Positions 15,394 through 63,774 of a stretch of DNA of 64,000 nt are shown one piece after another. Every line of letters starts with the position of its first letter. Positions within the stretch are counted from its first letter, which is position 1. Source of the DNA: an uncultured Actinomycetes bacterium. Its GTDB lineage: Bacteria > Actinomycetota > Acidimicrobiia > Acidimicrobiales > RAAP-2. The DNA is taken from NCBI GenBank assembly GCA_903893745.1, contig CAITNF010000004.1, forward strand, positions 124,001-188,000, given 5' to 3'. Position numbers and translations under genes: made by a program. The notes under the pieces were generated by a model. It saw only the letters and a list, made by a program, of their open reading frames with translations. It had not been told where the DNA came from and ran no database searches.

Positions 15394-15902
15394 CCGGGGC
15401 GTCCCAATGCCAGACGACGTTCGGTGCGCGACGTCATGAAGTAGGTAATAGCCAAGGCCAGAGCGTCGGCGGCGTCGGCGGGTTTTGGGATCTCACTCAG
15501 CGAACAGAGTCGCGTCACCATGCCCTGGACTTGAATCTTGCTCGCCGCCCCGTAGCCCGTCACCGCCAGCTTCACTTCTTGAGCAGTGAATTGGCGCACG
15601 GGCAGATCGAGCGCTCCCGCCAGCGCCACCGCTACTCCACTGGCTTGAGCCACGGGAATTGCAGTTTTAGCATTTCGTTGGAAAAAAACTCTTTCGACGA
15701 CGACCGCGTCAGGCTGGGTTTCACTCAACAGGGCGCGCAGTTCCACAAGGAGTTGACCCAGGCGTTTTTCAACTTCCATCCCAGGGTCGGTCTCGATGAC
15801 CCCCGCCCTCAGCGCCTTAAATGACTCCAGGCCATCGAAAGAACCCTCCACCAACCCAAAGCCACAACGGGTCAACCCGGGGTCGATTCCTAGTACGAAC
15901 AT
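15390..15902 (-). CDS. ruvC: Crossover junction endodeoxyribonuclease RuvC
   Basis: 170 aa Holliday-junction resolvase. Catalytic acids are visible in FVLGIDPGLTRCGFG (first Asp), VVVERVFFQRN (Glu) and KPADAADALALAI (two Asp). A TACTAT hexamer lies 7 bp before the ATG (15910-15915), so a near-leaderless promoter for ruvCAB is possible in the 38-bp gap after yebC. Confidence 0.95.
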   Translation of the reverse strand: MFVLGIDPGLTRCGFGLVEGSFDGLESFKALRAGVIETDPGMEVEKRLGQLLVELRALLSETQPDAVVVERVFFQRNAKTAIPVAQASGVAVALAGALDLPVRQFTAQEVKLAVTGYGAASKIQVQGMVTRLCSLSEIPKPADAADALALAITYFMTSRTERRLALGRPG

Positions 15903-15940
15903 ACGTTCGATAGTACCTCGTCGTAGGCCAGCAATGGGGT

Positions 15941-56730: not shown

Positions 56731-57530
56731 TCCCTCGTGGTGTGACGAGACCGCTCCTCATCAATAGAGTTGCCCCCATCAAGAATTAAACACTGACCAG
56801 TCATATAGGAAGAGCCCGGCGACGCCAACCAGCCAATCAACGACGCGACTTCGTCGGGTGTACCACTTCGACCTACTGGCGACAATGCTCCCTCACTCGC
56901 TTCGAAAGCTGTCTGCGAGCCAGTGGCAATCCATCCGGGAGCAACCGCGTTCACGGTGACCCCACTACCGGCGGTATCGAGGGCTAGTGCTTTGGTCAGC
57001 CCGACCAACCCCGCCTTCGCGGCACCGTAGACCGGCTGAGCTCGCATCGCCATTACCGGTCCGGTCACGCTCGCGACAAAGATAAGTCGCCCCCACCCAT
57101 TGGCCAGTAGCGCCGGCATGGCCGCCTTCGCCACCAGAAAACTCGAGTCAAGATTGCGCGCGAGACCCGCGTGCCATTCGTCAAGATCTATGGACTCGAG
57201 TAGGCTCTGCGCCAGAGTTGGGTCACTCTGGGACACCATTCCCGCGTTGGCGACCACGACGTCGAGCCGCGCCCACTGTTCGAGGGCCGAGGCCACCAAC
57301 TTAGGAGCGCTCGTGGGATCAGTGAGATCGCCCACCAAGCCCAGCGCGTCTATTCCCAAGTCGCGTAGTTCGCTCACGCGTTGGTCGACTCGAGAAGTAG
57401 TCGAACCCAGCACCACCTTGGCCCCCATCGCACCGAGCAGTCGGGCAGTGGCCATGCCAATGCCACTCGGACTTCCGGCACCGGTTACGAGGGCTACTCG
57501 CTCGTGTAGTGATGCCGACGTCAAGATCAT
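56727..57530 (-). CDS. Short-chain dehydrogenase/reductase
   Basis: 267 aa. VALVTGAGSPSGIGMATARLL, VVVANAGMVSQ, YGAAKAGLVGLTKALALD and LILDGGNSIDEERS. The active-site Ser lies in FVASVTGPV. Start ATG 57530 fits the SDR N-terminus; an ATG at 57557 would add nine residues. The longer open frame to 57668 runs into the tRNA-Cys gene and cannot be used. Substrate unknown. Confidence 0.85.
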   Translation of the reverse strand: MILTSASLHERVALVTGAGSPSGIGMATARLLGAMGAKVVLGSTTSRVDQRVSELRDLGIDALGLVGDLTDPTSAPKLVASALEQWARLDVVVANAGMVSQSDPTLAQSLLESIDLDEWHAGLARNLDSSFLVAKAAMPALLANGWGRLIFVASVTGPVMAMRAQPVYGAAKAGLVGLTKALALDTAGSGVTVNAVAPGWIATGSQTAFEASEGALSPVGRSGTPDEVASLIGWLASPGSSYMTGQCLILDGGNSIDEERSRHTTRD

Positions 57531-57608
57531 CGACGCTTCGGGTGGCTGACGGTCCATTACCTGCACGTTAACGGCTGGCCAAAATGGGCGGCCGCCACGA
57601 CAGTGCTC

Positions 57609-57682
57609 TGGAGGCGGCGTCCGGATTCGAACCGGAGTACGGGGCTTTGCAGGCCCCTGCCTAACCACTCGGCCACGCCGCC
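57609..57682 (-). tRNA. tRNA-Cys (anticodon GCA)
   Basis: Acceptor GGCGGCG/CGCCGCC, anticodon stem GGGGC/GCCCC around loop CTGCAAA (anticodon GCA), T-arm GTTCGAATC, discriminator U73 as expected for tRNA-Cys, and an encoded CCA (57609-57611). Confidence 0.95.
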
Positions 57683-57716
57683 AGAAGGGTCAATCCTACT
57701 GCACTCATTAGGGTCT

Positions 57717-57818
57717 TCAGTCACGCCCGATCGACTTCTGTCGCGAGCGCAGGGCCCAGCCGAGCGCGTCAGCGTCCATCACCAGGGCCCACCAAGCATC
57801 GTGGTGGCACCAGTACAT
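57717..57818 (-). CDS. Possible small protein, 33 aa, after dinB
   Basis: ATG 57818 lies one base after the dinB TGA. The product is Trp-rich (MYWCHHDAWWALVMDADALG then WALRSRQKSIGRD) and ends 35 bp before tRNA-Cys. Unknown function, no homologue recognised. The tight spacing to dinB is the main support; it could also be chance. Confidence 0.3.
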   Translation of the reverse strand: MYWCHHDAWWALVMDADALGWALRSRQKSIGRD

Positions 57819-57819
57819 T

Positions 57820-59121
57820 TCAATCAGTGACGTAACCAGAGGGCTCGGGCCCAAACGCCGCTCGTCCTTGTTGTGTCGCCGGGTCTACTCCTGTTGGACC
57901 TAAATCACTGAGCGAACCCAGCGCCGTCCGACCAAAACGTTGGCGCACCTCATCAATGGCGTCACGCAGCGCCTCGTGCCCAGCCTGACGAGCCCCAGAA
58001 ATTGCCGAGGCCGCAACTCGGGCATTGGTCGAGGGGGTTTCGATACCAAAGCTCAATTGCACTTGATTTTGCGACCGCTCGAGGAAATTCGAGGCGTGAA
58101 TTCCGAGTAGTCGAACGGCTTGTTCGATGTGGATTGACGAAACTAGTGCTTCGCCGATCGACGCAATCGCCACGTCATCGTCCACGCCAAAAGCCAAAGT
58201 CTGCGAACGAGACACTGAAGTGAGATCATCAAATCGCACCACGACCGAAATCGTGCGTGCCACGTAGTGGCGTTCACGCAACGCACGAGCGACGACGCCA
58301 GCGTGCCCGCGAAGTTCGCTCACTATCTCATCGTGGCCCCGCAGTGAACGTGCAAACGTTTGATCGTGGCCCACCGACTTGGCCCCCCGATCAACGACAA
58401 CTTCTCGGGCGTCTTCACCCCTCGCGTACGCGGCGAGGGTCATCGCCATTGCCGGACCCAGGTGGCGCGCGAGTGACGCTTCATCGATTCGCGCAAGATC
58501 GCGCACCCAGGGAAGACCGAGATGACGTAGTTTGGCTGCCGTCGCGGGCCCCACCCCCCACAGAGCCTCGACGGGCATCTCATTTATCCAACGCTCTTCA
58601 GTTGCCCGGTTGACCCAGTAGACCCCTCGAGCATCGACCAATTGCCCGTCGACCACTCGAGGTTTGGCCTTTTTTGAGGCAAGTTTGGCGAAGAGTTTAT
58701 TGCGTCCGAGTCCAATACCGCATTCGAGCTTCAGTTCATCACGAATGCGTTCGCGTAATGCCCGCGCTCCACTTATCGGACGGACGTTCAAACGACGCAG
58801 ACTGCGTAAATCGGCGAATACCTCATCGAGCCCCAACGGTTCGAAGTCCGGCGTCAGGTCACTGACCACTCGGTGAAATGCTCTCGAATACTCTTCGTAA
58901 CGGTCAAAACGCCCCGGCAACATAATGAGGTCAGGGCACAAGCGTCGCGCCATCACACTGGGCATTGCACTACGAACACCAAAACGACGGGCTTCGTAGC
59001 TCGCGCTCGCCACGACACCACGATCACCAGATCCACCGACCGCGACCGGCTTTCCTACAAGCGAGGGATCGTCAAGTATCTCTACGGACGCAAAAAAGGC
59101 GTCCAGGTCCACGTGCAGCAT
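57820..59121 (-). CDS. dinB: DNA polymerase IV (DinB, Y family)
   Basis: 433 aa translesion polymerase. LHVDLDAFFASVEIL (first metal Asp), VVASASYEARRFGVRSAMP, and the second metal site in PLGLDEVFADLRSL, where Ser of the common SxDE is Gly-Leu. The thumb and little-finger domains follow. I chose ATG 59121 because GAGG lies 6 bp before it; an ATG at 59184 would overlap the PIG-L gene by 38 bp and add 21 poor residues. No clear beta-clamp motif at the C-terminus. It is the last named gene of the SOS-box operon at 60,8xx. Confidence 0.9.
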   Translation of the reverse strand: MLHVDLDAFFASVEILDDPSLVGKPVAVGGSGDRGVVASASYEARRFGVRSAMPSVMARRLCPDLIMLPGRFDRYEEYSRAFHRVVSDLTPDFEPLGLDEVFADLRSLRRLNVRPISGARALRERIRDELKLECGIGLGRNKLFAKLASKKAKPRVVDGQLVDARGVYWVNRATEERWINEMPVEALWGVGPATAAKLRHLGLPWVRDLARIDEASLARHLGPAMAMTLAAYARGEDAREVVVDRGAKSVGHDQTFARSLRGHDEIVSELRGHAGVVARALRERHYVARTISVVVRFDDLTSVSRSQTLAFGVDDDVAIASIGEALVSSIHIEQAVRLLGIHASNFLERSQNQVQLSFGIETPSTNARVAASAISGARQAGHEALRDAIDEVRQRFGRTALGSLSDLGPTGVDPATQQGRAAFGPEPSGYVTD

Positions 59122-59146
59122 TGGGGCCTCATCGACCGAGGGATCC

Positions 59147-59854
59147 TCAGAAGGCAAGTTCAACGAGTCGGAAGGCTTCACCAAAAGCCACCCCCACCGG
59201 ACGTCCCGCCTGCTCAGCGCGTTCGTAGACGACTTGGCGAATGGCGTCCGCGTCGCCAGCTAACTGCGACGCGTGCGCAAGGACCGCTTTAACCTTGACG
59301 TCAATTGTGGACGTAACATCGGCCACCACGTCTGGTTCGTGCGTGCCGCTAAGTAACAGGTGGTCGACTTGGTGAGCGGGCCCTTGCTCTGGGAAGTAGA
59401 GCGGCATGGCGGCGGCGGGAGCTACCGCGTCAAGGGCCGCCCAACCGGTCTCTCGATGATCACGGTGATTGACGTAGACACCACCAAAAAACGTCGCGGT
59501 TGGATCAGGGGCTATCACGACGTTCGGTCGATGTTGGCGGATCAGTCCCACCAGTGCTGAGCGAAGTTCTTCGTCGTTCGTCACACCACCGTCTGGGCGG
59601 TCCAGCGTGGTGACCGTCGCCACCCCCATCAAGTCGGCCGCCAACTGCAGCTCGGCGCGCCGTGTGGCGCGCAGCGAGCTTGAATTAGTCGATTCAGCGT
59701 GCGCACCCTTGCCGCCATCACAGACCACCACGAGATGCACGGCACCGCCCTCACTCGCCCACTGGGCCAGCAGTCCCCCCGCAGCGACGTCCGCGTCGTC
59801 GGGATGCGCATAGATAGCCAGTGCGGAAGCGGGCCGCAAGTTAAGTCGCTGCAC
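59147..59854 (-). CDS. PIG-L (LmbE-like) family deacetylase
   Basis: 235 aa zinc-dependent N-acetyl sugar deacetylase family. Zinc ligands are in AHPDDADVAAGG and VNHRDHRETGW. Actinobacterial relatives include MshB and Mca (mycothiol synthesis and detoxification), but this one is shorter and the general LmbE type. It lies 2 bp after nrdR and just before dinB, so it is part of the SOS operon. A mycothiol role is only suggested. Confidence 0.8.
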   Translation of the reverse strand: MQRLNLRPASALAIYAHPDDADVAAGGLLAQWASEGGAVHLVVVCDGGKGAHAESTNSSSLRATRRAELQLAADLMGVATVTTLDRPDGGVTNDEELRSALVGLIRQHRPNVVIAPDPTATFFGGVYVNHRDHRETGWAALDAVAPAAAMPLYFPEQGPAHQVDHLLLSGTHEPDVVADVTSTIDVKVKAVLAHASQLAGDADAIRQVVYERAEQAGRPVGVAFGEAFRLVELAF

Positions 59855-59856
59855 CG

Positions 59857-60327
59857 CTAACCCCTCAATTTGGGTGCCGTAGTCTTCACCAGCATGCCGA
59901 TTTCACGAGCAAAGTCCTCAGTATCCTCAAATCCCTTATAGACCGAAGCGAAGCGCACGTAGGCCACGTCGTCAACCAGTCGCAACGCTTCGAGCGTTGC
60001 CAGCCCCACTTCTTCACTGGTCACGTCCCGGTTAAGCAGTCGCATGGACTCTTCAACCCCGAGCGCGAGCGCCATCTGAACTTCTTCATCGACTGGACGG
60101 TTCTTGCAGGCAGCCCGGACACCACCGAGAATTTTTAGACGATCAAAGGGCTCGCGTTCACCAGAACGCTTGATCAGGTACAGTCCCACCTCCTCGATTC
60201 GTTCAAAAGTGGTGAAGCGATGCTGACAGGCCGCACACTCTCGCCGGCGGCGAATAGCTACGCCATCTTCGGCGAGTCGCGAATCAACCACCCGGTCGTC
60301 ATCTGCCGCACAGAATGGACACCGCAT
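59857..60327 (-). CDS. nrdR: Transcriptional repressor NrdR
   Basis: 156 aa. N-terminal zinc ribbon MRCPFCAADDDRVVDSR...CAACQHRFTTFE, and an ATP-cone (EPFDRLKILGGVRAACKNRP to KGFED). NrdR represses ribonucleotide reductase genes in response to nucleotide levels. It lies between a LysM gene and a PIG-L gene. In mycobacteria it also sits beside the SOS-controlled LysM gene chiZ and lexA. Confidence 0.94.
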   Translation of the reverse strand: MRCPFCAADDDRVVDSRLAEDGVAIRRRRECAACQHRFTTFERIEEVGLYLIKRSGEREPFDRLKILGGVRAACKNRPVDEEVQMALALGVEESMRLLNRDVTSEEVGLATLEALRLVDDVAYVRFASVYKGFEDTEDFAREIGMLVKTTAPKLRG

Positions 60328-60358
60328 CTACCCAGAATACACATAAAAGCCCAAAATA

Positions 60359-60796
60359 TTAGGGAATAAGGATGTGCTCACCAGTTACCACCACTGATGA
60401 GTGCAGAGCACGTACGAGGACCAAACGTGCTGCGTGGGGATTTAGGGGATTCATCAGAGTCGCGATTGATGCAACAGTGTCGCCCGGTTGGACAACGTAC
60501 TCAATCCCCGATCCGAGAGTCGAACTCGATGCGAGGTCAGTCGGTAGACCAGCTCCCGTAGCTCCACCAAATGCCGCACCGGGCCAGGCGAGTACCACTA
60601 CCGCGCACACACCAGCGAACAACACCAGCGTTCGGCGTCGGCGTTGGAGCATCCGCGCTCTCGAAGCTCGGCGCAGAGCCAGCGTGTCGCCCACGGGCCA
60701 CCGAGTGGCCGAGGTATCGAGCGTGACGAGCCGTAACTTAGGGCGTGGACTCTCTTCACCAAGTTCTTGCGGGACGAACACTTCAACTGCAGACAT
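60359..60796 (-). CDS. SOS-controlled LysM protein, ChiZ/YneA-like
   Basis: 145 aa. A cytoplasmic basic N-terminus, one TM at about 57-77 (RTLVLFAGVCAVVVLAWPGA), then a single LysM domain (IEYVVQPGDTVASIATLMNP to EHILIP). YneA, ChiZ (Rv2719c) and DivS have this layout and block cell division during the SOS response. ATG 60796 has AAGGAG 8 bp upstream, better than the GTG at 60805. Twin LexA boxes at 60816-60829 and 60841-60854 lie 20-58 bp before the start. lexA itself is not next to it in this window. Confidence 0.82.
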   Translation of the reverse strand: MSAVEVFVPQELGEESPRPKLRLVTLDTSATRWPVGDTLALRRASRARMLQRRRRTLVLFAGVCAVVVLAWPGAAFGGATGAGLPTDLASSSTLGSGIEYVVQPGDTVASIATLMNPLNPHAARLVLVRALHSSVVVTGEHILIP

Positions 60797-60815
60797 TGCC
60801 GACACTCCTTCTTAA

Positions 60816-60829
60816 CGAACACCTGTTCG
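60816..60829 (-). promoter_or_regulatory. LexA (SOS) box 1
   Basis: CGAACACCTGTTCG on the plus strand, a perfect CGAAC-N4-GTTCG actinobacterial LexA operator. It covers the predicted transcription start. Confidence 0.9.
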
Positions 60830-60831
60830 TA

Positions 60832-60837
60832 AGTATA
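60832..60837 (-). promoter_or_regulatory. Predicted -10 element between the two LexA boxes
   Basis: TATACT on the minus strand, centred between the boxes. LexA bound to both operators would block the promoter of LysM-nrdR-PIG-L-dinB. Confidence 0.6.
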
Positions 60838-60840
60838 GAG

Positions 60841-60854
60841 CGAACAGGTGTTCG
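60841..60854 (-). promoter_or_regulatory. LexA (SOS) box 2
   Basis: CGAACAGGTGTTCG, a second perfect operator, 25 bp centre to centre from the first. Confidence 0.9.
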
Positions 60855-60877
60855 TTACAAGTGGTTTTTAACGAATT

Positions 60878-62236
60878 TTAGGCTCGAATATCCCGGAATT
60901 CTCTTATTTTGCGACCAACACGGCCGAAATCTTCGATTTTTGCTGAGTTCACGAGTCGGTTCGGCCCCAAAGCCTTCGTTGCTTCGCTCAGCGTGCGGAC
61001 CATTCTGATTTGGTGACTCATCACTAGCTTCGCGCAGTGTGCACTCAAGTGCTCATCGGGATGATCGTGGGAGTCGGTCACTTGACCATCGGTCACCCAC
61101 ACGATTGGCTCTTTGCCCCGGCGACTGTGAATCGCCCACTCCAAAATGGGTCCATCAATGCCATTGCCAATATTGCCGGTGGGGCAGGTTTGCACCACTC
61201 CTCGCTCATTGGCCAACAGCCACGCGTTAGGTGTCGTTGCCCATTCACCCGGGTGGTGACTGTATCCGACAATTACTGCATTAGGAGCCAGCGCGACCAG
61301 CGATGCCAACTGCGTCATCGCAATGTCCATCGAACCTGATTGATCAACAACTACTACTCCACCGTGACGGTGATGTCGAATGGCAAAGGCCCGCCGATGG
61401 GGATCAACGAGCAGGCTCCCGGGGTAACGCATCGCCACGCCGCTCGTCGACCTTCGTGACGCGGCGATACCGGACTGGCGAGGGCGTCGAACCAGCAGTG
61501 GCGAATCAGCAAACACCAGCTTCGCAAATCTTCCCGTCGGCGCACGCCGACCCCCCGGTTCGAGGGAGCGACGAAACTTTCGAAGCGCTTCGGATCCTGA
61601 CGGAATCTGTGCCGACATTGCCCCCGACACGAGGCGAGCAATGGGAATGGTCACGTTTCGGTAGCCAGCCGGTACCAGGTCATCTTCGACTGAGGTGCTA
61701 CCCAATTCTTGCGTCGACGCCGCGTCGACAACTTGCAGCGCACGTTTGCGCACGGCCCGTAGCGCCGGGAGCCACGAAGCGTTGCCCGCTCGAATGCCCG
61801 ACAAGTACTCACGCTCTGCTCCGGTTCCTAGTACCGCGAGTAAGAAACAGACTGCTTCACTCCACGAATTACTCTCGGCTAGCCGTCGACCTCCGGTCTT
61901 CTCCGAACCGTCGGTCAATAACATCGTCGCGAAACCCAAACGCGACACCAGAGAATTGACTCTCAGTTCTTCCGCACACTCGAGCGCTCTCGGATGAACG
62001 TCGCTAATACTCTCTAGTCCTTCGTACGAATGGGGGCTCACCCGTACGTGCATGAGTTCGTGCGCACGAACCGCTCGGGCGCGCGGCTCGAGTTCCAGTG
62101 GCACATGTAAAATGCGATCACGCAAATCACAACTCGCTTGACCACGCATTGTCGAGCCTCGCTCAACCCTCCACGTCCGAGACTCAAATCCATCGAGGCG
62201 ACCGGTAACTAGTTCCGGAAAGATTGCCGAACTCAC
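60878..62236 (-). CDS. VWA-domain protein with HELMH zincin-like motif
   Basis: 452 aa. An N-terminal domain has HELMH at 59-63 (zinc-peptidase HExxH) and, 26 residues later, ALECAEELRVN, whose Glu residues could be the third ligand as in CobT-like proteins. The C-terminal VWA domain carries the MIDAS DQSGSM (Asp298, Ser300, Ser302) and VTDGQ. The middle (200-270) is Arg-rich and uncharacterised. It overlaps its MoxR partner by 4 bp. Similar MoxR-VWA pairs assemble or insert metals into protein complexes, but I recognise no described system with this exact set. Confidence 0.8.
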   Translation of the reverse strand: MSSAIFPELVTGRLDGFESRTWRVERGSTMRGQASCDLRDRILHVPLELEPRARAVRAHELMHVRVSPHSYEGLESISDVHPRALECAEELRVNSLVSRLGFATMLLTDGSEKTGGRRLAESNSWSEAVCFLLAVLGTGAEREYLSGIRAGNASWLPALRAVRKRALQVVDAASTQELGSTSVEDDLVPAGYRNVTIPIARLVSGAMSAQIPSGSEALRKFRRSLEPGGRRAPTGRFAKLVFADSPLLVRRPRQSGIAASRRSTSGVAMRYPGSLLVDPHRRAFAIRHHRHGGVVVVDQSGSMDIAMTQLASLVALAPNAVIVGYSHHPGEWATTPNAWLLANERGVVQTCPTGNIGNGIDGPILEWAIHSRRGKEPIVWVTDGQVTDSHDHPDEHLSAHCAKLVMSHQIRMVRTLSEATKALGPNRLVNSAKIEDFGRVGRKIREFRDIRA

Positions 62237-62976
62237 CGCAGGGCACCAATGGAAAGTGCGTCAAGCACCGCCTCCGCATTTAACGGTCCGAAGGCCAGTT
62301 TGGCGGCTCGCTCTGGCCCAAGGACCCTTCGCAAGCGGTCGTACGCGTAAAAGCTTCGCAGCGAGACCCGACGCGACTCGTCGCCGAGTGAACCAGCCAA
62401 CGCCGCCCCTCGCAAGTCACTGCTGAGTTGGGCCAATGCCGATGGGTGAGGTTGATCAATTCGAATGCAGACCGCGAATCGATCGCGTAGGGCCGGTGGT
62501 AGATCATCAATATTCTCAAGATTGGTGGTCATCACGGCAGAAAAATCAGGTCCTGAGCTGATCCATTCGCCACTTTGAGGATTACGCCAGCGAGCCGACT
62601 CCTGGGTATCGGTAATCCCGAGCAGCGTACTGAGTGCGTCGCCCGAGGCCCGGTCAATCTCGTCAACTACCAAACGACCTCCCCGCCCCCCTTCGCCACG
62701 CCACGCACGAATTCCGGGGCCCTCGAGCCACTCCCAGCGCCCCTCGCCAGTCGGCATCCAGGTACCGGTGATCTCTCCAGTGGTTAAGTCCTCCGTACAG
62801 ACGAGTCGTTCCGCGGGCGATCCCGTAGTGCCAAAACGTAGCGCGGCGTAAGTCTTGCCCGTACCCGGTGGCCCGTAGAGGACAATCCGGTTCACTCCAG
62901 ATCGAAGAACGTCATCAAAATCTCGCCAGCACTGCCCAATTTCGTGCTCATCGTCACCTAACACCATTGCTCCCAT
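62233..62976 (-). CDS. MoxR-family AAA+ ATPase
   Basis: 247 aa. Walker A GPPGTGKTY (35-43), a pre-sensor loop region GTWMPTGEGRWEWLEGPGIR, Walker B RLVVDEID (101-108), sensor 1 VMTTNLEN and Arg finger ALRDRF. MoxR ATPases act as chaperones for a VWA partner, here encoded next to it with a 4-bp overlap. It lacks a long C-terminal lid compared with larger members. Genes for its client complex are not obvious nearby. Confidence 0.88.
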   Translation of the reverse strand: MGAMVLGDDEHEIGQCWRDFDDVLRSGVNRIVLYGPPGTGKTYAALRFGTTGSPAERLVCTEDLTTGEITGTWMPTGEGRWEWLEGPGIRAWRGEGGRGGRLVVDEIDRASGDALSTLLGITDTQESARWRNPQSGEWISSGPDFSAVMTTNLENIDDLPPALRDRFAVCIRIDQPHPSALAQLSSDLRGAALAGSLGDESRRVSLRSFYAYDRLRRVLGPERAAKLAFGPLNAEAVLDALSIGALR

Positions 62977-63069
62977 CGTCGGCGACGCAACGGTCGGGTT
63001 CAGGTGCGACAGTGATGGAAGATTGGAAAAGTATTATTTGGCGTCGAAAAAAACTTCCCGATGTTCGCC

Positions 63070-63774
63070 TTAGACACCTTCGCCGAGGTAGACCGCTCGA
63101 ACTCGCTCATCATGGAGAAGGTTCTCGGCGGTGTCGCTCAAGACAATTCGGCCATTTTCCATAACGTAGCCACGGTCAGCCAGACGCAGCGCCTGAGCAG
63201 CATTTTGTTCCACAAGCAGAACCGTGGTCCCTTGCTCACGAATTTCCCCGATGATTTCAAAAATCTGCTGAATAATTTTTGGCGCAAGCCCCATTGACGG
63301 CTCGTCGAGCAATATGAGACGCGGTTTGCTCATCAAAGCTCGCCCAATCGCCAGCATTTGTTGTTCACCGCCGGATAAATTGCTGCCTAGTTGTTTGCGA
63401 CGATCTCGCAAAATAGGAAACGAGCTGTAAATCTGATCAACATCGTCGTCAAACGATCCCTTGCGAACAAAACCACCCATCTCGAGGTTTTCTTCTACGG
63501 TCATCTGCGGGAAAATACGTCGACCTTCTGGAACGTGACTAATACCAAGGCGAGTAAATTCGTGAGCTCGAACTTGCGTGAGGTCTTTACCTTCGAATGA
63601 GATGGTGCCGCTTTCTGGAGCGTGCAGTCCAGAGAGCATTCGCAGCGTGGTCGACTTGCCCGCACCATTAGCACCGAGAAGCGTGACAATCTCGCCTTTC
63701 TCGACGTTGAAGGAAATTCCATGGAGAGCGGTGATCGCGCCGTAACGCACAATGGTGTCAGTAACTTGCAGCAT
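63070..63774 (-). CDS. livF: Branched-chain amino acid ABC transporter ATPase LivF
   Basis: 234 aa. Walker A LLGANGAGKSTT, signature LSGGEQQM, Walker B LILLDEPSMGLAPKI, H-loop VLLVEQNAAQAL. It works with LivG on the inner face of the high-affinity amino acid or amide importer. Its ATG overlaps the livG stop by 1 bp (TGATG at 63772-63776). Confidence 0.93.
   Translation of the reverse strand: MLQVTDTIVRYGAITALHGISFNVEKGEIVTLLGANGAGKSTTLRMLSGLHAPESGTISFEGKDLTQVRAHEFTRLGISHVPEGRRIFPQMTVEENLEMGGFVRKGSFDDDVDQIYSSFPILRDRRKQLGSNLSGGEQQMLAIGRALMSKPRLILLDEPSMGLAPKIIQQIFEIIGEIREQGTTVLLVEQNAAQALRLADRGYVMENGRIVLSDTAENLLHDERVRAVYLGEGV

Follow-up and report, generated by a model that had tools for sequence, protein, structure and literature searches.

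A LexA-boxed LysM-nrdR-PIG-L-dinB gene cluster with two putative promoters in an uncultured lineage of Acidimicrobiia

In Mycobacterium tuberculosis, the LysM-type division inhibitor ChiZ (PMC3989709) is the product of Rv2719c, which is followed by nrdR in the operon Rv2719c-nrdR-Rv2717c, and the whole of this operon was reported to be under LexA by network inference (PMC4181829). The third gene of that operon is Rv2717c, and the available part of the report names neither dinB nor PIG-L in it, in agreement with a first-pass annotation of the DNA treated here, which had described the mycobacterial ChiZ-NrdR region as SOS-controlled and without dinB. The SOS-induced division suppressor DivS of Corynebacterium glutamicum and the SOS-induced YneA of Bacillus subtilis, the latter with an extracellular LysM domain, are also encoded near lexA (PMC3989709); as far as the accessible text of that source goes, no link to dinB is seen in the lexA-divS region, and nrdR, PIG-L and dinB are not mentioned with yneA. 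In Streptomyces venezuelae, the gene for a Y-family polymerase, dinP, is a LexA target beside dnaE2 (PMC9380542), and in the accessible text it goes with dnaE2 and not with a LysM-nrdR operon. The subject of this report is the gene cluster LysM-nrdR-PIG-L-dinB, located in a stretch of 64,000 nucleotides (referred to as the window) of contig CAITNF010000004.1 from an uncultured bacterium of the order Acidimicrobiales. Here, as in M. tuberculosis, the gene for a LysM-type protein and then nrdR stand behind LexA boxes; in C. glutamicum, divS is presumably linked to nrdR as well. The LysM-nrdR core under LexA is known already, and the special feature of this locus is the presence of PIG-L and dinB directly after nrdR. 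In the accessible parts of the literature searched, PIG-L or dinB was not found to be described within a LexA-controlled LysM-nrdR operon.

The four genes are aligned in series on the same strand, as the first-pass annotation had it; the coordinates of the open reading frames agree, and Pfam and NCBIfam matches confirm the identity of NrdR, PIG-L and DNA polymerase IV (Pol IV). The features, in the order of transcription, are as follows (nt, nucleotides).

60832-60860, minus strand: promoter P1, with −35 TTGTAA (60860-60855), a 17-nt spacer and −10 TATACT (60837-60832)
60841-60854: LexA box 1, CGAACAGGTGTTCG, an exact match that fills the P1 spacer
60816-60829: LexA box 2, CGAACACCTGTTCG, an exact match just 3' of the −10 and 25 nt from box 1
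60810-60805, minus strand: AAGGAG at the LysM start
60796-60359, minus strand: LysM gene from the likelier ATG (first mechanical start 60805), coding for a hydrophobic segment and a LysM-like C-terminus
60339-60334, minus strand: −10 TATTCT of the putative leaderless promoter P2, 12 nt before the nrdR ATG, with no LexA box
60327-59857, minus strand: nrdR, zinc ribbon plus ATP cone (TIGR00244)
59854-59147, minus strand: PIG-L/LmbE-family deacetylase gene, with intact HPDD and NHxDH motifs
59184-57820, minus strand: dinB, DNA polymerase IV, the true start being uncertain between 59184 and 59121
57682-57609: tRNA-Cys, after dinB

The description of the junctions as gaps or overlaps of a few bases holds for nrdR and PIG-L, separated by 2 nt, and for PIG-L and dinB, which overlap (by 38 nt if dinB begins at its first start codon). 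It does not hold for LysM and nrdR, which are 31 nt apart; no other gap of the operon is as wide, and the putative P2 lies within it.

Based on this arrangement, we propose, with a probability of roughly 0.7, that the cluster is a two-promoter SOS operon, in which the LexA-controlled P1 would direct transcription of all four genes and the LexA-free P2 that of nrdR, PIG-L and dinB. The parts, their order, the boxes and their conservation are seen in the sequences themselves. One box lies in the spacer of P1 and the other just past its −10, and with this placement LexA would shut P1 off. After DNA damage, P1 would read LysM, nrdR, PIG-L and dinB jointly, while P2 would read nrdR, PIG-L and dinB without damage. 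Since P1 would read all four genes and P2 lacks LysM, damage would add the LysM protein, the likely division brake, as an SOS-only product and would lift NrdR, the deacetylase and Pol IV from a basal level. From the layout we infer promoter activity, LexA binding, induction and division arrest.

The two perfect LexA boxes described around the TATACT −10 before LysM are both exact matches to CGAACNNNNGTTCG. This pattern occurs at 8 sites in the genome (G000; 1.66 Mb, 96.4% complete), compared with 2 for the reversed control pattern. Six of the 8 exact boxes are located at recognisable SOS genes (two at LysM and one each at lexA, recA, ruvC and imuA'/SRAP, partly recognised by eye), the other two being intragenic; the neighbourhoods were read with family searches, and recA, ruvC, ruvA and ruvB were assigned by eye. 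Because boxes are found at lexA, recA and other core SOS genes, CGAACNNNNGTTCG is considered to be the SOS motif of this genome. The lexA box lies 7.6 kb past the operon promoter, outside the window, and a second, imperfect box lies 41 nt upstream of it; a lexA promoter with a box pair at the 25-nt spacing of P1 was rejected on account of this distance. By eye, LexA of this genome carries the Ala-Gly site together with the Ser and Lys that we take to be those expected for self-cleavage. The ruvC box (window 15896-15909) overlaps the ruvC start codon, and ruvC, ruvA and a ruvB-like frame, recognised by eye, are on the minus strand. A single exact box (L007 1501-1514, G000:C9:24750) is located between the divergently aligned imuA' (NF058630, over its cut-off) and SRAP genes, and shared SOS control of both from this one box is possible.

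The conservation of the locus was analysed in two sets of genomes. Of the 178 genomes of the class, 147, our own included, yielded an nrdR; the nrdR regions of 100 other genomes were fetched to make 101 loci together with our own, while 46 genomes, many of family f18, are outside this sample. These loci were mapped with profiles grown from the window proteins. For the second set, named genomes were scanned with the PIG-L alignment, and the best 80 of 438 relatives were kept. The named relatives are mostly labelled Acidimicrobiaceae, Acidimicrobiales, Actinomycetes or uncultured actinobacterium, and isolate names such as palsa, bog and fen among them point to peat and permafrost. Seven of these loci (L203, L209, L217, L245, L250, L252 and L257) carry the labels Saccharibacteria or Acidobacteria(ota) in spite of the same operon as in metagenome-assembled genomes of Acidimicrobiales, and are perhaps mislabelled. 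The sets L012-L022 and L181-L260 share some genomes and are not independent.

A lexA match was obtained within the fetched region of 91 of the 101 loci; in most cases lexA and LysM-nrdR are on opposite strands with the boxes in between, and this divergent arrangement of lexA, boxes and LysM-nrdR is common in Acidimicrobiia. Outside families f1 and f13, at least one exact box was present in 60 of 84 scorable lexA-nrdR intervals; in the 68.9 kb of these 84 intervals there were 118 exact boxes, against 0 of the control pattern. The genes nrdR, PIG-L and dinB are directly consecutive in 13 of the 101 loci, that is, in 12 of 12 loci of f1 (the family of the window, consisting of three genera of uncultured soil and freshwater actinobacteria; dinB of L016 is cut by a contig end) and in one of f13. 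Among the other 88, three have a contig end less than 0.8 kb from nrdR, and in one (L041) a PIG-L gene lies 2.9 kb past the nrdR start and is not accompanied by dinB. All 80 named loci keep the order nrdR-PIG-L-dinB, with an nrdR/PIG-L gap of −4 to 3 nt in 71 of them (mechanical starts).

The SOS-type promoter described before LysM is also retained, and the placement of boxes expected to block P1 recurs in relatives. P1 could be scored in the 76 of the 80 named relatives whose contigs include the promoter region; 74 of these 76 carry two exact boxes at a distance of 22-26 nt, with TANNNT between the boxes in 74 of 74.

An internal promoter was indicated by a TANNNT recurring at a fixed distance before the nrdR start, first seen in the gap sequences of family f1. 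Leaderless genes are described as being marked by TANNNT some 12 bp ahead of the start codon (PMC3160421), and the same sequence was mapped as the main −10 of M. tuberculosis (PMC3898074), as given in the accessible parts of both reports. For this comparison, an nrdR start was assigned in 72 of the 88 other class loci and in 79 of the 80 named loci (77 distinct). TANNNT was located at −12/−13 of nrdR in 12 of 12 f1 genomes, in 77 of 77 distinct named relatives, in the f13 locus (L048) and in 53 of the 72 other class loci, the last count increasing to 69 of 72 when offsets from −12 to −16 were allowed. At the same offset it was found in 0 of 78 cases before PIG-L and in 0 of 75 before LysM, and the background at other offsets was 0.002 to 0.018 per position. 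No exact LexA box was found within 120 nt upstream of nrdR in the f1 sets. Since P2 is conserved and lacks a LexA box, nrdR, PIG-L and dinB are probably transcribed also independently of LexA, and P2 is strongly indicated, by sequence comparison, to be a LexA-independent promoter for these three genes. The first-pass annotation had one LexA promoter starting all functions together and had named a second promoter inside the cluster as an observation against this view; it is on this point that it must be revised.

A terminator separating dinB had been named as another such observation. No convincing one was detected within the cluster, either by the terminator scan or by folding of the LysM-nrdR gap; the sole terminator-like site (59203-59189) is weak, and shuffles give more such sites (6.2) than the 1 found here. 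The LysM-nrdR gap was also considered as a terminator or attenuator, and this was not accepted, the mean z being −0.26 against mononucleotide shuffles for 84 distinct sequences, with 23% under −1. Near-palindromes of the type CCC...GGG, AT-rich, recur around the LysM stop codon (window about 60355-60370) and in relatives. In the two genomes of genus g3 (L021, L022), NrdR-type palindromes, CCACAATATGTTGTGG and CCACAAGATGTTGTGG, are located 36 nt before nrdR, at the putative promoter, which suggests autocontrol of nrdR by NrdR in g3.

NrdR is clearly identified (TIGR00244, 158.3 bits against a cut-off of 124.65), both the zinc ribbon and the ATP cone being over curated cut-offs. The sole gene found in the genome for a large subunit of ribonucleotide reductase is nrdJ, of the B12-dependent class II, and it is preceded by two 16-bp NrdR-type boxes 31 nt apart, for which we applied what we take to be the NrdR box consensus. 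A box pair 31-32 nt apart precedes nrdJ in 8 of 10 loci of the family, the other two not being scorable by the script, and the two nrdJ boxes are the only exact matches in the genome to a pattern drawn from those same sites. Most likely, judging from these sites, NrdR represses nrdJ through the two upstream boxes, and SOS-induced nrdR should then lower, not raise, nrdJ transcription whenever NrdR adopts its repressing state.

The LysM protein is small, with one hydrophobic segment (by eye) and a C-terminal LysM-like segment, and by position and layout it resembles DivS, ChiZ and YneA; it is a likely division brake. DinB exceeds the cut-off of NF002677 (280.1 bits against 256), with the other eight Pol IV models listed below their cut-offs, and its catalytic residues D5, D7, D99 and E100 are invariant in 12 rows. 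Its C-terminus shows a QLSF-like stretch in many rows, degenerate in others, which we compared with what we assume to be the beta-clamp motif. The PF00817 search gave one gene in the genome; DinB is not claimed as the only translesion polymerase, because in L007 ImuA' is followed by a frame that, by eye, looks like ImuB.

The third product is, by its motifs, a true member of the PIG-L/LmbE family (PF02585, 95.4 bits), with H17, D19, D20, H130 and H133 invariant in 12 rows (alignments A1 and A2 exclude L016, and A2 also excludes L048). It stays below the curated equivalog cut-offs of BshB1 (103 of 182.5 bits), Mca (39.1 of 277.15) and MshB (36.5 of 224.35), and its closest solved relatives are diacetylchitobiose deacetylases. 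The genome carries elsewhere two MshB/Mca-like paralogues side by side, both under the cut-offs, and an MshC-like gene (428.1 bits, under the cut-off of 485.1); because of these, and because its scores are far below both cut-offs, PIG-L was rejected as mycothiol deacetylase (MshB) or Mca. A role in detoxifying thiol conjugates of genotoxins found no support in this analysis.

Outside the joined lineage, dinB appears mostly without LexA boxes. DinB matches were obtained in 124 of the 178 genomes, and 60 dinB regions were taken, mainly top-ranked, of which 58 contained DinB (not G075 and G087) and 57 had at least 400 nt upstream. An exact LexA box in the 500 nt upstream was present in only 2 of these 57 (L118 and L152; control pattern 0), and that of L118 has a poor centre. 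Since dinB is so rarely boxed elsewhere, its attachment to the operon is probably what put it under SOS control in the joined lineage. In 16 of the 58 other loci, a PIG-L gene of this kind begins 1.5-2.8 kb ahead of the dinB start and on its strand, and none of the 16 has a LexA box (for 15 of them the whole upstream stretch was available); a NUDIX-like gene (by eye) lies between the two in L147. For a subset of genomes, nrdR and dinB were compared on the same contig in 12 pairs. Seven pairs are on the same strand, 9-140 kb apart, with dinB downstream in 6, and five are on opposite strands, 128-1064 kb apart; the nearest are G083 (9.2 kb, a second and weaker DinB match) and G079 of family f7 (10.4 kb, dinB downstream on the same strand). 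In a quick DinB tree, the joined loci are on one side of a branch beside f7 and f10. As for the order of events, we infer one joining, or a few, of an older PIG-L...dinB neighbourhood with the SOS operon. The core of lexA, boxes, LysM, nrdR and P2 would be old in the class, and PIG-L and dinB, which in some other families are neighbours that lack LexA boxes, would have been joined behind nrdR in this lineage, by which dinB was placed under SOS control.

The alternative that survives best, although we consider it doubtful, is that PIG-L and dinB came to stand behind nrdR merely by compaction of already close genes, with no selected regulatory meaning. The small f1 genomes (1.5-2.2 Mb), the 16 other loci with PIG-L before dinB on the same strand and the nearby downstream dinB of G079 are in line with such a course; the order, from which none of the 12 f1 genomes and none of the 80 named loci departs, and the close nrdR/PIG-L junction in 71 of the latter, argue against it, as does DinB identity within f1 down to 42%, which indicates that the joined unit has lasted. 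Rather unlikely is the case in which SOS control effectively ends at LysM, with minor read-through from P1, a housekeeping operon from P2 and dinB without a real damage response. The conservation of P2, the size of the LysM-nrdR gap, the enrichment of short inverted repeats within it and the NrdR-type box before nrdR in the two g3 genomes, suggesting separate control of P2, agree with this case, in contrast to the lack of any terminator-like site in the gap or of a significant hairpin overall, and to the M. tuberculosis operon, reported as a whole under LexA (PMC4181829, as far as accessible). Least probable is a LexA promoter that is the only promoter, giving division arrest, NrdR, deacetylase and Pol IV together and only after damage, for the double-box promoter, the tight packing and the absence of terminator-like sites above chance are outweighed by the TANNNT at −12/−13 of nrdR, which is present in every scored f1 locus and in 53 of 72 others of the class but not at this offset before PIG-L or LysM. 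The SOS-type promoter, the operon layout, the homology of the parts and the mycobacterial contrast of the first-pass annotation are kept in the two-promoter operon proposed here, and its sole LexA promoter is not.

Several observations weigh against this two-promoter operon. P1 is the single sigma-70-type match in a simple promoter scan of 57000-63100, and shuffles give 1.7 such matches, no fewer than found, so that the case for P1 rests on the boxes and their conservation. Among the 76 scorable named relatives, one box is exact and the other imperfect in L248, and L259 is the sole case without a box at the expected place. In L259, the stretch upstream of nrdR is different and perhaps reflects another gene or a contig that is chimeric. 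P2 lacks a recognisable −35 and is missing from the list of the same simple scan, because the scan requires a −35. Exact inverted repeats with arms of at least 6 are commoner in the LysM-nrdR gap (14 of 84) than in shuffles (14 of 420). The LysM domain scores 15.0 bits, under the Pfam cut-off of 20.9. The contig of the f13 locus (L048, G169) begins inside LysM, leaving P1 out of sight, and the counts from the named relatives are not independent of one another because these are close kin. The branch that sets the joined loci apart in the quick DinB tree has a low support of 15, so that their arrangement may have arisen once or more than once. In L152 (f4), a canonical box is located 34 nt before a lower-scoring DinB match, and the joined lineage may therefore not be alone in having a DinB under SOS control.

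Between lexA and LysM, the window carries two further genes (60878-62976, minus strand), one for a MoxR-like AAA ATPase and one for a VWA-like protein that contains an HELMH motif. Among the 101 loci, AAA and VWA matches are confined to genus g1, both being present in 8 of 9 g1 genomes including our own; in L019, also of g1, the contig begins inside the VWA gene. Several g1 genomes have LexA boxes between lexA and the AAA gene, and the AAA/VWA pair may thus be SOS-linked; in the window, the nearest box-like site before the AAA gene is imperfect and 0.9 kb away (63861).

Tentatively, the locus may represent an SOS regulon rewired by gene joining, in which stacked promoters would fix the ratio of NrdR to Pol IV transcripts at rest and damage would raise both together with the division brake. 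If this is true, the repressor of deoxynucleoside triphosphate (dNTP) synthesis and the translesion polymerase would rise together, providing a built-in limit of dNTPs during mutagenic synthesis and not a general dNTP rise. The lineage would also offer a clean comparative case of an error-prone polymerase entering a stress regulon, apparently via operon joining. A second, leaderless nrdR promoter across the class would explain how a housekeeping regulator is accommodated inside a damage operon.

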